Origin: Halobacteriales archaeon QS_4_70_19
GTDB lineage: Archaea > Halobacteriota > Halobacteria > Halobacteriales > Haloarculaceae
Direction: 5' to 3'
Assembly (NCBI GenBank): GCA_003020985.1
Contig: PXRM01000003.1
Location: 1 to 64,000, forward strand
DNA length: 64,000 bases
Positions 422-43,550 of this stretch are shown here, in pieces. The position numbers and the translations under genes were made by a program. Under the pieces are notes generated by a model. The model saw only the letters and a program-made list of their open reading frames with translations. It had not been told where the DNA came from and searched no databases. Within the stretch, counting starts at the first letter, position 1, and every line of letters starts with the position of its first letter.

Positions 422-423
422 GG

Positions 424-520
424 TGCTTTCTCGCCGCGGGAACCGGCTGCCCGGCTTCGCCGGCCAGTTATTCGTTCGCGGGCTCTGCCCGCGAACCACT
501 CCTCGCAAAAACGTTCGGAC
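424..520 (+). repeat. Dispersed hairpin repeat, family A copy 1
   Basis: This element starts just after the pan stop codon. It holds two strong hairpins, one around GGCTGCCCGGCTTCGCCGGCC and one GTTCGCGGG-loop-CCCGCGAAC, then a conserved tail ACCACTCCTCGCAAAAACGTTC. The same order of hairpin, hairpin and AAAACGTTC tail recurs at 43279-43394 (plus) and 16361-16490 (minus). Each copy lies directly behind a stop codon in the gene's orientation. It is probably a 3'-UTR or terminator element; the function is inferred. Confidence 0.75.
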
Positions 521-778
521 AGACGCTGCCGCTCTTCGCGGCCGCGCCGCTCGGAGCGGAGAGACGCGCTCGCTCCGCTCGCACGTATGCACGTTCCTGC
601 TTACCCGCCGATCGCAGCCGCACCAGTTTCCCGGTCGTACCAATCAGCGGCCCACGACCGCCTCCCGCGGGCCACTCCTTTCCAGTCGAACCGGTTCAGC
701 TGGAGTAGCAGGTCTTCTACCGGACGATTAACCCGCCGTACCAAACTCCCTATTCATCGGTCGCCCCACCACCTGTAT
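521..778. other. Non-coding gap with short palindromes
   Basis: No convincing gene is seen. The stretch continues the repeat with small palindromes such as GCGCTCGCTCCGCTCGC near 568-584 and then runs into the upstream region of the next small gene. An open frame from 587 runs into that gene, but its first part is Arg/Ser/Pro-rich and reads like non-coding DNA. Confidence 0.5.
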
Positions 779-16205: not shown

Positions 16206-16360
16206 GAAACAGCGTAGCTATCCTGTCAAATCGGCAAATAATACGGGATAAAGAGGAATTTCCTGGACGAAGGGTAGATAAATCAGTAATACGGCGTATC
16301 GCGCGAGCGAAACGAGCGCGGTTTCACCGCTCGGAGACCCGTAGGGCCGGAGAGCGGCGT
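16206..16360. other. Intergenic stretch
   Basis: No gene is seen. An AT-rich part (16220-16300, AAATAATACGGGATAAAGAG) is followed by palindromic GCGCGAGCGAAACGAGCGCG near 16300-16319. It lies between a plus-strand gene end and the family A repeat that trails a minus-strand gene remnant. Confidence 0.4.
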
Positions 16361-16490
16361 TTTTTCTGAACGCTTTCTGCGCAGGTGGTTTATGGGCTCC
16401 ACCGACGAACGGACAGCTGGCCGGCGGAGCCGGCCAGCCGGTTCCCGCAGGCGGGCGGCTCACCGCCGGCCGAGGAAACCCGCAGCGTAA
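16361..16490 (-). repeat. Dispersed hairpin repeat, family A copy 2
   Basis: On the minus strand this begins eight bases after the stop codon of the NmrA-type remnant. It shows a GGGTTTCCTCG start, a variable hairpin (GGCGGTGAGCCGCC), the conserved hairpin GGCTGGCCGGCTCCGCCGGCC, then a degraded second hairpin (GTTCGTCGGTGGAGCC). It ends in a CGTTCAGAA tail. The order and much of the sequence match copies 1 and 3. The second hairpin has lost its perfect pairing here. Confidence 0.7.
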
Positions 16491-16497
16491 AAAAGCT

Positions 16498-16749
16498 CTA
16501 TCGGAACGCCTTCACCCGCCCCGGCACGGGCGCCATCCCGTCCTCGTCCGCCCAGCCGTGGTCGCGGAGAGACTCCTCCAGGCCGGTGAACTCGAAGCCG
16601 AACGTCTCCTCCAGCGCCCGTGCGGCGTCGCTGGATGGGTCGCGGGTGAGACCGCGGACGTTGAACGATCCGTCTACGAGCAGGTGATCGACGACGGCTC
16701 CGCCCCGGTTGCCCGTCGCGCCGGTGGCGAGAACGCGTGTGTCTGCCAT
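16498..16749 (-). pseudogene. NmrA/SDR-type NAD(P)-binding gene with internal deletion
   Basis: Only 83 residues remain of a family normally near 280-300. Residues 1-45 are a standard NmrA N-terminus (RVLATGATGNRGGAVVDHLL, then VRGLTRDPSSDAARAL). Residues about 46-70 (FGFEFTGLEESLRDHGW) look like the extreme C-terminus of the same family. All of the central substrate domain is missing, yet the frame is intact, which points to an in-frame internal deletion, perhaps between two ALEE-coding sites. The product would be half a Rossmann fold and is unlikely to be active. Confidence 0.65.
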
Positions 16750-37990: not shown

Positions 37991-38108
37991 GGTGCCGCGC
38001 AATCGGTGGAACCGCGGTAGAGACGACAGGAGCAGAGTATTTCGGACAGGATCGGGACGTATCTAGCGAATTCATGCAACAACCGCGTAATATCGGGGGT
38101 TGGTCGTA

Positions 38109-41100
38109 GTGCGCGACGAGAACGAACGCTATTTCCAGCGTATCGAGGACGACCTCGACGAGGCGTTCGAGGCCGCGCGCGAGGCGAAGGCGCGGGGCGG
38201 CGACCCCTCACCCGAGATCGAGATTCCGGTCGCGAAGGACATGGCCGACCGGGTGGAGAACATCCTCGGCATCGAGGGAGTCGCCGAGCGGGTCCGCGAA
38301 CTCGAAGGGGAGATGTCCCGCGAGGAGGCCGCCCTCGAACTCGTGACCGACTTCGTCGACGGCACCGTCGGGGACTACGACGGCCGCGCCGGGAAGGTCG
38401 AGGGCGCGGTCCGGACCGCCGTCGCGCTGCTGACCGAGGGCGTCGTCGCGGCCCCCATCGAGGGCATTGACCGCGTCGAACTCCTGCAGAACGACGACGG
38501 GACGGAGTTCGTCAACGTCTACTACGCCGGGCCGATCCGCTCGGCGGGCGGGACCGCACAGGCCCTCTCCGTCCTCGTTGCCGACTACGCCCGCTCGCTG
38601 CTGGACATCGACGAGTACCGTGCCCGGGACAGCGAGATCGAGCGCTACGCCGAGGAGATCGGTCTCTACGACAAGGAGACCGGGCTCCAGTACACCCCGA
38701 AGGACCCCGAGACGAGGTTCATCGCCGAGCACATGCCCATCATGCTGGACGGGGAGGCCACGGGCGACGAGGAGGTGTCCGGCTTCCGCGACCTCGAACG
38801 GGTCGACACCAACAACGCCCGCGGGGGGATGTGTCTCGTCCTCGCCGAGGGGATCGCCCTGAAGGCACCCAAGATCCAGCGCTACACCCGCGGACTGGAC
38901 GAGGTCGACTGGCCCTGGCTGCAGGACCTCATCGACGGGAACTACGAGAAGGAGACGGACGAGGGGGCCGCGGACGGTGACGCTGCCGACGATGAGGCTG
39001 CGGACGGTGACGACCCCAGCGACGAGGCCGGCGGGAATCCCCCCGACGAGCAGCCGGGCCCGCCCCGGCCGGACCCGTCCGACAAGTTCCTGCGGGACCT
39101 CATCGCCGGCCGCCCCGTCTTCGGTCACCCCTCGGAGCCGGGCGGGTTCCGCCTCCGCTACGGTCGTGCGCGGAACCACGGCTTCGCCACCGGCGGCATC
39201 CACCCGTCGACGATGCACCTCGTCGACGACTTCCTCGCCACCGGCACCCAGATCAAGACCGAACGCCCCGGCAAGGCCCACGGGATCGTCCCCGTCGACT
39301 CCATCGAGGGGCCGACGGTGAAACTCGCCAACGGCGAGGTCCGGTGCGTCGACGACCTTGAGGAGGCCAGGGAGATCCGCAACGGCGTCGACGCCATCCT
39401 CGACCTGGGCGAGTACCTCGTCAACTACGGGGAGTTCGTCGAGAACAACTGCCCGCTCGCGCCCGCCTCCTACACGGTCGAGTGGTGGCGCCACGACATG
39501 CGCGCGGCGGACGCGGACCTGCAGGCGCTCGAGGACGACCCGCACGTCGACCTCAACCACCCCTCGGCCGCGGAGGCGCTGGCGTGGGCCACCGACCACG
39601 ACGCACCGCTCCACCCGGCGTACACCTACTGCTGGCACGACCTCTCGGTCGAGACGTTCGACGCGCTCGCGGCGGCCGCGAGCGATGGCTCCTGGGCCGA
39701 GGCCGACGGGCTGGCGATGCCCGACGACGGTGATGGCGCCGGCCCCGGTCGGGCCGACGACGCCGCCTCCGACGGGCGGACGCTCGTCCTCCCGCGCACC
39801 GACCTCGCCACCGACGCGCTGGAGGCGCTGCTCGTCGAGCACACCCAGGGCGAGGACACGCTGACCGTCCCGGACGCGCTCCCGCTGGTGCGCTCGCTCG
39901 GGCTCACGGAGGACCTGGACCGGACGTGGACGCTGGCGGACCTCCCGCGCGAGGCCCGCGAGTACGACGGCGGGGCGAACGCTATCGAGGCGGCCAACGC
40001 CGTCGCCCCCTTCCGGCTCCGCGAGCGCGCACCCACCCGCATCGGCGCCCGGATGGGTCGGCCGGAGAAGTCCGAGAGCCGCGACCTCTCGCCGGCGGTC
40101 CACACCCTGTTCCCCATCGGCGAGGCCGGCGGCAGCCAGCGCTCGTTCGCCGAGGCCGCGAAGTACGCTCCCACGATGGAGCACCCGCAGGGCCGCGTCG
40201 ACGTGGAGCTGGCGCGCCGGGGGTGCCGGGACTGTGCGACCGAGACGTTCCGGGCCCGTTGCCCGGACTGTAACACGCCGACCGACGCGGTCTACGTCTG
40301 CCCGGACTGCGACGGCCGCGTCGAACCGGACGAGTCCGACCGCGCCGAGTGCCCCCGCTGCGAGACGCTCGCCTCGCCCACCCAGTACGTCACGCTCGAC
40401 GCCGGCGACGAGTACCGGAGCGCCATGTCCGGCGTGAAGGAACGGGAGAACGCCTTCGGGACGCTGAAGGCGGTCAAGGGGCTCACCTCGAAGGAGAAGG
40501 TCCCCGAACCCGTCGAGAAGGGCATCCTCAGGGCGAAGAACGAGGTGAGCGTGTTCAAGGACGGCACCGTCCGCTACGACATGACCGACCTCCCGGTCAC
40601 GTCGGTCCGGCCGGAGGAACTCGACGTCACGGCCGACGACTTCCGCGAACTCGGCTACCACGAGGACATCGACGGGGAGCCTCTGCGTCACGACGACCAG
40701 CTGGTCGAACTGAAGGTGCAGGACATCGTCCTCTCGGACGGTGCCGCCGAACACATGCTCCGGACGGCCGACTTCGTCGACGACCTGCTCACCCAGTACT
40801 ACGGCGTCGACCCGTTCTACGAGGTCGAGGACCGGCAGGACCTGGTCGGTGAACTGGTGTTCGGGATGGCACCGCACACGTCGGCGGCGGTGGTGGGGCG
40901 GGTGGTCGGGTTCACGAGTGCTGCGGTCGGTTATGCCCACCCATATTTCCACGCAGCGAAGCGGCGGAACTGCTTCCACCCCGATACGAAACTCTGGTAC
41001 GAGGACGAGGACGGAATCACGCACCACGAGCGAATCGAAACGTTCGTCAAGCAGTATCTGGACGAGGAAACCGCCGAGACGGACGACTTCGGAACGCTGG

Positions 41101-43262
41101 TCGATCATCTCGGCGACCTCGATGGGACACTCCATGTGCCGTCGCTGTCGGATGACGGCACACAGTCGCGCCAGCCAGTCGAGGCAGTCAGCAAGCACCC
41201 GGCTCCGGACCACATGGTCCGCATCGAGACCCAATCCGGGCGCGAACTGACCGTGACGCCCGACCACCGGGTCCACGTATACGACGCGGAACTCGGGCGT
41301 ATCGTCTCCACCGAGGCCAGCGAACTGGACAAGTCCACGCCACTTGTCACGCCTCGACATCTCGACAGCCTCCGCCCGACGGAAGACCGACAGCGGTTCG
41401 ACCTCCTCGCGGAGTTCATCGCGACCGACGAGATGGACGAGGACCGCCTGATGGCGAAAGGGATGGAGAAGGACCGGCTCTACGACCTGTTCACCGACTG
41501 TCTGGCCGATGACTGGGACGGTGAGTTCTACGCGCTACAGAGCACCGCCGACCACCTCGGACTGACGAAGAAGTCGCTCAGCAACTACCTCTACCGCGAG
41601 AGTATCCCCGTCTCGTTGCTCGCGGAGTTCTTCGAGACGACCGAGGACCTCCTCGCGTTCGTCCCCGAGGACGCCACCCTCGGGATGAAGCGCGACGGGA
41701 CGGAGATTGATCGAGTCGTCGAACTGAACGGACGGGTCGCGACGCTCCTGGGCTACTACGCCGCCGAGGGGTTCGCCAGAAAGCAGGAGACGCCGAAGGG
41801 GATGATTCACCAGACGACCATCTGTGGGACCGAGGACGAGGCCCGGCAGTTCTTCCTTGACGTGCTCTCGGAGGAGTTCGGTGTCGACCCCTACGAGGAG
41901 AACCACGCGAAAGTCACCGCCTCGGGCCGACTGCTCCGCGTGTTCCTCGACACGGTTCTCGACGGGGGCATACTGGCACACACGAAGCGGGTCCCGCAAT
42001 GTATCTTCGACGCGCCCGACGGGATCGTCGGGGCGTACCTCTCGGGGTACTTCAGTGGGGACGGCACCGTGTCGGAGGGCGCACTCGAGATAAAAGCGAC
42101 CACAGTGAGTCCTGAACTCCGGGACGACATCGTCGCCCTTCTCACGAGGCTAGGTATCAATCCCAGAGTCAACCACGTTGACCCTGTCCCTCTTCATCGG
42201 AAGTTCCCCGACGCCTACCCCATCGACGACGAATCGATGACTGCTCCGTCGTTCATCATCAGACTCAGCTCCGGAGACGTGGTTCAGTTCGCCGAAACGA
42301 GTGGATTCCATCTCTCACGGAAACAGACCCGACTGGAACAGAACGTCGCCGCAGTCACACCGCGTGGTGCGCGGGTCTACGATGGAGGGAGCGGGGACTA
42401 TCTGGTCGATGTCGTCGACTCGATAGAGTACATTGAGGTTGACATCGACTACACGTACTGCTTGGCGGTAGAGAGCACCCATTCACTTGTTGCAGAAGAC
42501 ATATCAGTAAATCAGTGTGATGGGGACGAAGATTGTGTTATGCTGTTATTGGATGGATTACTGAATTTTAGCCGAAGTTATTTGCCAAACAAGCGAGGAG
42601 GAAAAATGGACGCCCCCCTGGTCATGTCCTCGCGCATCGACCCCTCGGAGATCGACGACGAGGCACACAACATCGACATCGCCACCTCGTACCCCCGGGA
42701 GTTCTACGAGGCGACCCGCGAGATGGCCGACCCCGAGGAGGTCGACATCCGGATCGCCGAGTCCACGCTCGCGACGGACGACGAGTACCGCGGCTTCGAC
42801 CACACCCACGACACGACCGACATCGCCGCGGGCCCGGACCTGTCGGCGTACAAGACGCTCGATGACATGGACAGGAAGATGGACGGGCAGCTGGAGCTGG
42901 CCCGGAAGATCCGGGCCGTCGACGAGACGGACGTGGCCGAGCGCATCATCGAGTACCATTTCCTCCCGGACCTCATCGGCAACCTCCGTGCGTTCTCCCG
43001 GCAGGAGACGCGCTGCCGGGACTGCGGTGAGAAGTACCGGCGGATGCCCCTCTCGGGCGACTGCCGAGAGTGTGGCGGCGAGGTCTCGCTGACCGTCTAC
43101 CAGGGCTCCGTGAACAAGTACATGGAGACGGCTATGCGCGTCGCCGAGGAGTACGGGGCCCGCCCGTACACGAAACAGCGCCTCGAGATCCTGGACCGGG
43201 CGCTGGAGTCCATCTTCGAGAACGACCACAACAAGCAGAGCGGAATCGCCGATTTCATGTAG
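38109..43262 (+). CDS. polC: DNA polymerase D large subunit (DP2) with intein
   Basis: The 1717-residue precursor gives about 1202 residues after splicing, typical of haloarchaeal DP2, the catalytic subunit of the replicative PolD. Landmarks are [20 protein letters not shown] near the start, [20 protein letters not shown], and an acidic haloarchaea-specific insert around residues 280-325. A zinc-binding Cys cluster lies near residue 700 ([24 protein letters not shown], CPRCE). The catalytic segment [20 protein letters not shown] is interrupted by the intein, and a second zinc motif is [20 protein letters not shown]. I chose the GTG at 38109 ([15 protein letters not shown]); an upstream TTG at 38100 is the only other option. 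The polB small subunit is not in the window. Confidence 0.96.
   Translation: [1717 protein letters not shown]
40971..42515 (+). mobile_element. Intein with LAGLIDADG homing endonuclease in polC
   Basis: This in-frame insert of 515 residues starts at Cys955 ([14 protein letters not shown], block A). Block B is [16 protein letters not shown] with the TxxH pair. Two LAGLIDADG-like motifs, [13 protein letters not shown] and [15 protein letters not shown], lie about 110 residues apart. Block F/G is [17 protein letters not shown] and ISVNQ, followed by Cys of CDGDED as the +1 residue. The last intein residue is Gln instead of Asn and the penultimate is Asn instead of His. Gln-ended inteins at this PolD site are known from Pyrococcus. 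Codon use becomes AT-richer towards the 3' end. Confidence 0.93.
42516..42608 (+). other. AT-rich C-extein tract (probable co-conversion scar)
   Basis: The 93 bases after the intein encode the conserved [20 protein letters not shown] and on to KRGGKM. By my count about 37 of 93 are G or C (TTATTGGATGGATTACTGAA is typical), against strongly GC-ending codons before the intein and after 42608. The protein sequence is normal. The simplest reading is flanking donor DNA copied in with the intein during homing repair. Confidence 0.7.
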
Positions 43263-43278
43263 ACGAGCTCTCACTCGT

Positions 43279-43394
43279 CGGGTTTCCTCGCGCGCCCCCC
43301 GGCGCGCTGCGGGACCCGGCTGGCCGGCTAAGCCGGCCAGCTATCCGTTCGTCGGCTCCGCCGACGGACCACTCCTCGTGAAAACGTTCAGAAG
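43279..43394 (+). repeat. Dispersed hairpin repeat, family A copy 3
   Basis: This starts 17 bases after the polC stop. It has GGGTTTCCTCG, then a GCGCGCC-loop-GGCGCGC hairpin, then GGCTGGCCGGCTAAGCCGGCC. The second hairpin is GTTCGTCGGCTCCGCCGACGG, and the tail is ACCACTCCTCGTGAAAACG followed by TTCAGAA. It is the best-preserved of the three copies. A further palindrome, GGGCGCTACGCGCCC, lies just downstream (43408-43422). Confidence 0.78.
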
Positions 43395-43550
43395 GAAGCC
43401 GGCACTCGGGCGCTACGCGCCCTCGTACCGGTGAACGGCGCTCGCATCGCTCGCGCCGATGCAGACGGTCCGTCTCCTCCCCTTGATGCGTACGGGAACG
43501 TGGAATCGCCCCTCACAAACACGCTAACACACCACGCGCTGAGTGTGGAA

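Follow-up and report, generated by a model that had tools for sequence, protein, structure and literature searches.

A palindromic element behind gene ends in Halobacteriales: a probable terminator of transcription on both strands

The window analysed here is a stretch of 64,000 nucleotides from Halobacteriales archaeon QS_4_70_19 (contig PXRM01000003.1). It holds three copies of a palindromic element, each of them directly 3' of a stop codon and in the direction of the gene concerned (Table 1). The three genes are pan, a short ORF whose NmrA match is slightly below the Pfam cut-off, and polC/DP2. An earlier note on this DNA had placed repeats at these three places and strands, behind these same stops, and all are indeed present. 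Their extent was underestimated in it: the repeats are real but longer, continuing past the ends that had been given through two more hairpins to a conserved GGTGAAAC...GTATGC terminus, so that the true ends are 590, 16294 and 43462. The polC/DP2 gene itself carries an intein, with Intein_splicing and LAGLIDADG_3 matches within residues 1015-1468 (window 38100-43262).

Table 1. Copies of the element in the window and the optional insert of copy 1
Feature	Position	Strand	Context
Copy 1	422..590	+	behind pan stop TGA 419-421 (pan C-terminus)
Copy 2	16294..16497	-	behind stop TAG 16500-16498 of 129-aa NmrA-like ORF
Copy 3	43265..43462	+	behind polC/DP2 stop TAG 43260-43262
hp2 + hp3 insert in copy 1	445..496	+	optional double hairpin; hairpins of the earlier note

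The full element is about 145 nt long and reaches about 200 nt with optional double-hairpin inserts. Read in gene direction, the gene end is followed by a short outer arm, a T5-6 tract, a GC arm, TCG and the helix P2 with its variable hairpin hp1. Then come ACTC, a second GC arm, A5-6, C, the partner of the outer arm, GAAAAA, the hairpin hp4, GGTGAAAC, the hairpin hp5 and GTATGC. In the source genus, the outer arm is GAGC and its partner GTTC. The two GC arms pair together and A5-6 pairs with the T-tract; on the sense strand T5 precedes all helices. P2 itself (GGTnTCC/GGGnACC) contains an inner internal loop, UCG/CUGC, and is flanked by TCG and ACTC, which form a conserved internal loop UCG/ACUC. 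We know of no ribozyme or kink-turn that the internal loop matches.

The two hairpins reported previously (GGCTGGCC... and GTTCGTCGG...) exist, but they form an optional insert, hp2 and hp3, which is sited between P2 and ACTC and is absent from loci L017, L020 and L021 and from most other genera. The hp2/hp3 module was also seen outside the element at L050 (G000:C16:65905-65971) and L056 (G000:C28:102392-102494), two copies of another repeat with the common flank CAGGCAACAGGGnGGnACTGAAAGGGGCCGC. In Haloglomus, nested double-hairpin modules such as GTCGTGGAATCGC...GCGATTCCACGGGCAATCAGAACGC...GCGTTCTGATGAC are inserted both within hairpin loops and at fixed points in the element, and their copies are about 90% identical (L003, L006, L007, L008, L013, L014 and L016 in genome G000; L120). 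They are apparently small mobile palindromes inside palindromes. Simple forms of the element were found as well, in which an unrelated perfect hairpin replaces P2 and the T/A frame stays; the flanking TCG/(A,G)CTC loop is retained in about 40 of 73 of them.

Searches were conducted with two covariance models, R1 built from 12 copies and R2 representing the 145-nt form. For model building, N was put in place of missing modules, because MAFFT set the module boundary wrongly when full and minimal forms were aligned together. Copy 1 was matched at 422-524 by R1 and at 421-592 by R2, copy 2 with 129.8 bits by R1 and at 16292-16498 by R2, and copy 3 with 108.1 bits by R1 and at 43268-43464 by R2. 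Copy 1 is degenerate, the 5' arm of P2 and hp1 being gone; its A-tract is AAAAA (507-511) and its 3' terminus GTATGC. Unlike copy 1, the orthologous pan loci of congeners bear intact forms. Copy 2 has the sense tract TTTTTT four nt past the stop and its downstream gene is convergent. Copy 3 retains P2, hp2, hp3 and the A-tract, and is followed by a codirectional gene. The sense T-tract is degenerate in copy 1 (TTTC) and copy 3 (TCTC), and these two copies have either decayed or act mainly against antisense transcription.

The element is repeated throughout the genome. BLAST with copy 3 identified some 22 distinct places in the 2.84-Mb genome of the source organism (E 1e-34 to 1e-5) and R1 matched 28-34 places, which excludes a chance match; the copy number is about 30 per genome. 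A deep search of one complete genome returned 39 matches. Of 116 Halobacteriales genomes, R2 found the element in 106, which cover 42 of 45 genera (among them Haloarcula, Halobacterium, Halosimplex, Halorientalis, Natronomonas, Halobaculum, Halogeometricum and Halorussus). None of the 82 genomes searched elsewhere in the phylum has it. A looser arrangement (T5, 20 to 75 nt, A5, 7 to 8 nt, A5) is present up to tens of times in a genome, many of these copies being simple forms; the same pattern read backwards, used as a control, is almost absent. Matches to the pattern in Mycobacterium, Pseudonocardia and Stenotrophomonas scored 15-21 bits and were taken as chance. A virus-borne element was also considered and rejected: the core pattern matched no more than three viral contigs, with an R2 score of 10 bits. 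Rfam (release 15) gave no match at the gathering threshold and, below it, chance-level miRNA matches only. No prior description was found in the open-access journal papers searched. Two or three codirectional copies follow each other in tandem at G006:C1:701583-702033, G006:C1:703157-703496 and G028:C1:919856-920286.

The position of the copies relative to genes is highly regular. The covariance-model search of the genome, which the earlier note had proposed, located 28/28 full-type copies 3' of a stop in the sense orientation; the remaining two of the 30 loci listed match the hp2/hp3 insert only. That note had named copies without strand or position preference, or stems without covariation, as evidence against its reading, and neither was found. 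Of 85 named copies that were identified from their sequence only, 63 are in sense and directly 3' of a stop, a tRNA or the SRP RNA, against 11% of random positions. They comprise 49 copies behind sense stops (mostly at -3 to +6 nt), 13 at tRNA ends, some of which were assigned by eye and with Rfam, and one behind an SRP RNA whose 3' end lies 10 nt ahead of the copy (L067). Another 11 are solely antisense to an opposite-strand ORF, and 11 have no assignment, several of these being tandem copies or cases of missed stops: the simple gene caller misses small ORFs and may take wrong frames, and by eye some unassigned copies follow stops or tRNAs. Overall, the distance to stops is mostly 0-8 nt, in sense. 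The 20 simple forms of two genomes are distributed likewise over sense stops (6), tRNAs (9, six by ARAGORN and L369, L373 and L374 by eye) and reversed positions beside an opposite-strand stop (5). Being found behind stops, tRNA and SRP RNA genes alike, the element is thus a marker of transcription-unit 3' ends of every kind. The next gene runs either way about equally, and a model restricted to convergent genes was rejected on this account. Two convergent genes may each be followed by a copy of its own, the copies then standing tail to tail, and in a minority of cases a copy is reversed and follows the stop of the gene on the opposite strand.

Two particular settings were also observed. At L071, L168, L218, L222 and L232 a duplicated tRNA 3' end precedes the copy, the real tRNA being located roughly 100 nt or more upstream; these duplications resemble that of an attachment site next to a terminator. 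At L207, L182, L179, L165 and L230 the copy starts beside the apparent promoter region of a divergent gene and points away from it, as if stopping backward transcripts from that promoter.

The structure of the element is under selection. In a cross-genus alignment of 21 copies, 90.6% of the cells were paired, changes affected both sides in 21 of 35 pairs, and 118 cells showed double changes against 44.0 +/- 4.7 in shuffled alignments (reached in 0/500) and at most 23 in slid controls. The outer arms co-vary between genera (GAGC/GTTC, CCAC/GTGG, CGAC/GTCG, CATC/ATGG, TACC/CTACG), and at the pan locus of Haloglomus the arms of P2 differ with pairing largely retained (GGATTCGC/GCGAACC, GGTGCCC/GGACACC, GGTGGCC/GGCCACC). 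The retention of pairing through stem changes, for which a few examples had been named before, is therefore real and far more extensive. It had been read as suggesting selection on RNA structure, but retained pairing alone does not demonstrate selection on a sense RNA. One pair of P2 is U-G in 82 of 83 cases among the 85 named copies, and outside this invariant pair G-U (49) is not in excess of A-C (39). As a control, 30 haloarchaeal tRNAs gave 37 G-U and 0 A-C, a contrast that is overstated because the tRNA program itself requires pairs. The inner hairpin of 73 simple forms contains 602 Watson-Crick, 5 G-U and 2 A-C pairs. Since G-U does not exceed A-C, the constraint on pairing looks like one on DNA, or on the RNA of both strands, and not like a simple sense-RNA constraint. 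The fixed U-G pair and the internal loop are exceptions and hint at specific recognition.

These observations bear on two alternative functions. The element could be a sense 3'-UTR RNA that folds in read-through transcripts and stabilises, processes or regulates them. The sense orientation directly behind stops, the strong covariation and the invariant U-G pair, whose retention on the sense strand is understandable only in RNA, all agree with this function. It is nevertheless improbable: a regulatory RNA of this kind would be confined to protein genes and to the sense orientation, but copies lie behind tRNA and SRP RNA genes and some are reversed. Moreover, T5C precedes the structure, so that most sense transcripts should end earlier, and the general excess of G-U over A-C is missing. 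Because the same element stands behind tRNA and SRP RNA genes and is reversed in a minority of cases, a role in transcription termination is indicated instead of a 3'-UTR stability element; of the functions suggested for it previously (3'-UTR, terminator or RNA-stability element), that of terminator is favored and that of 3'-UTR stability element is not supported in the form given. The pairing without preference of G-U over A-C would also suit a DNA site, where the palindrome would be extruded as hairpins or bound by a chromosomal protein and act as a roadblock or supercoil buffer between units, the T-tracts being incidental. The strong folding of copy 3 as single-strand DNA (z -5.6) and the tail-to-tail copies of convergent neighbours are in line with such a site. 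It is made very unlikely by the strict order T5-hairpin-A5-A5, by the invariant U-G, which is a mismatch in DNA, and by the fact that gene 3' ends set the position.

The copies show concerted evolution. In different families, orthologous genes bear the element in the same position, among them those coding for aCPSF1, thermosome, PolC and acyl-CoA dehydrogenase (all named from their sequences). The sequence of the element nevertheless tracks the genome, not the gene: aCPSF1 copies of two genera have a mutual score of 25.5, whereas their scores with copies from the same genome reach 156. Locus-specific inserts are common to closely related species (L113/L116, L107/L117). Among 60 3' flanks of polC and pan, the frame is present in sense in 14 and reversed in 3, the shuffled frequency being 0.07% for each, and some of the others hold degenerate forms; polC orthologs of other genera have the element in either orientation. 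The history of the copies is thus partly one of inheritance in place, of loss and renewed gain, and of homogenisation within genomes. Homogenisation, perhaps by gene conversion or by spread, gives each genus its own outer-stem sequence, or "dialect". The aCPSF1 gene, recognized by its C-terminal sequence, was seen to carry the element in two families, at L057 (G003) and L094 (G039), and self-regulation of aCPSF1 through the element is possible.

A further reading is that of a mobile palindrome, comparable to REP/BIME, MITE or the Haloquadratum SMRs, which would have spread in genomes and persisted at gene ends where it did no harm or was of use. The element is multi-copy, with genus dialects and own-genome copies more alike than orthologous ones; tandem copies occur (G006 701583-702033, G028 919856-920286), modules are nested, the hp2/hp3 module turns up in other contexts, and at some orthologous loci the element is reversed or absent. 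A tolerated insertion would hardly produce the exact spacing of 0-8 nt to stops and tRNA ends, the same orthologous genes bear the element across families, and it is near-universal in the order with no linked transposase seen, all of which makes a mobile origin of this type an unlikely explanation.

The terminator motif of Haloferax is a run of T that ends at C; T5C gave 95% termination in a reporter, and little structure was found near termination sites (PMC7237163). In Methanococcus, aCPSF1 binds and uses U-tracts (PMC8716108). Among copies of the element with a detectable tract, 137 of 163 have T5 or longer on the sense strand. This tract is not background, since T5 lies within 40 nt of the stop in only one of 44 other genes of the window. 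A run of at least 4-5 T near the gene end, as expected from an archaeal T-tract terminator, is thus the rule on the sense strand, with copies 1 and 3 of the window as exceptions. The two A-tracts are A5 or longer in 134/142 and 126/142 copies, and a stem of hp4 of at least 6 bp lies 0-3 nt from the A5 tract in 89 of the 113 copies with a stem, regardless of the direction of the next gene. The antisense strand accordingly reads as a GC-rich hairpin with a T-run immediately behind it, the arrangement of a bacterial-type terminator; a stricter pattern (loop 3-8) had no match in L125. The sense strand lacks this arrangement, its T5 being ahead of every helix instead of behind a hairpin.

Taken together, anatomy and position argue that the element is probably a haloarchaeal gene-end terminator acting on both strands. 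In the sense direction, a polymerase leaving the gene would reach the T5-6(C) tract a few nt past the stop or the mature RNA end and would be stopped by the known archaeal route, that is by the U-tract and probably with the aCPSF1/FttA nuclease. In the opposite direction, a polymerase coming from a convergent gene or an antisense promoter would transcribe hp5 first, then hp4 and, within 0-3 nt, a T5 (the sense A5), then a second T5. This would make up a hairpin-plus-U-tract terminator with a spare tract. The palindromic body, by pairing the sense T-tract with the A-tract, would join both terminators. It may stop read-through transcripts by its structure, act as a DNA hairpin at which the polymerase pauses, or offer a factor a binding site in the conserved UCG/ACUC internal loop. 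The whole would constitute a two-sided terminator and insulator. Several features count against this proposal: the sense hairpins come after the T-tract, which leaves a role for them in sense termination unexplained, the internal loop and the invariant U-G exceed the needs of a plain terminator, two copies of the window are without sense T5, and the termination sites of Haloferax show little structure nearby (PMC7237163). A bolder and more doubtful version, which we put forward tentatively, is that of an order-wide class read by a dedicated haloarchaeal factor. Such a factor would recognize the UCG/ACUC loop and the U-G pair, co-evolve with the genus-specific outer stems and couple termination, 3'-end formation and insulation of both strands. 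If true, this would be a mode of termination new to archaea, in which hairpins are considered dispensable.

The element flags likely transcript ends in hundreds of genomes and is a candidate for use as a strong terminator part in haloarchaeal genetics. With some 30 scattered copies homogenised in each genome, it is also a good case for the study of gene conversion or spread in polyploid archaea. Among known systems, enterobacterial REP/BIME are palindromic intergenic repeats often found behind stops and linked to mRNA ends and termination. They differ from the element in sequence and anatomy, have no T/A-tract frame and their orientation is not tied to genes in the same way. Bacterial intrinsic terminators are resembled on the antisense strand, where a GC-rich hairpin is followed by T5 within 0-3 nt; unlike them, the element has its sense T-tract ahead of the hairpin, and the usual bidirectional order of A-tract, hairpin and T-tract, taken as a control, is almost absent. 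The SMRs of Haloquadratum are similar as non-coding haloarchaeal repeats of about 110 bp, multi-copy, with inverted ends and no known transposase, but they are inserted mostly in PATE/IS605 elements of one species whereas the element lies behind genes across the order (PMC3119063). Membership in SMR-A was rejected, as copies stand where ordinary genes, tRNAs and SRP RNA end and not in PATE or IS605-type elements. Archaeal T-tract terminators share the T5(C) a few nt behind the ends of protein and RNA genes (PMC7237163; PMC8716108). These are described as bare U-tracts for which structure is not required, whereas here the tract opens a covarying palindromic element of 145 nt with two T5 tracts in opposite directions, which makes it directly testable whether structure and antisense insulation form part of archaeal termination.
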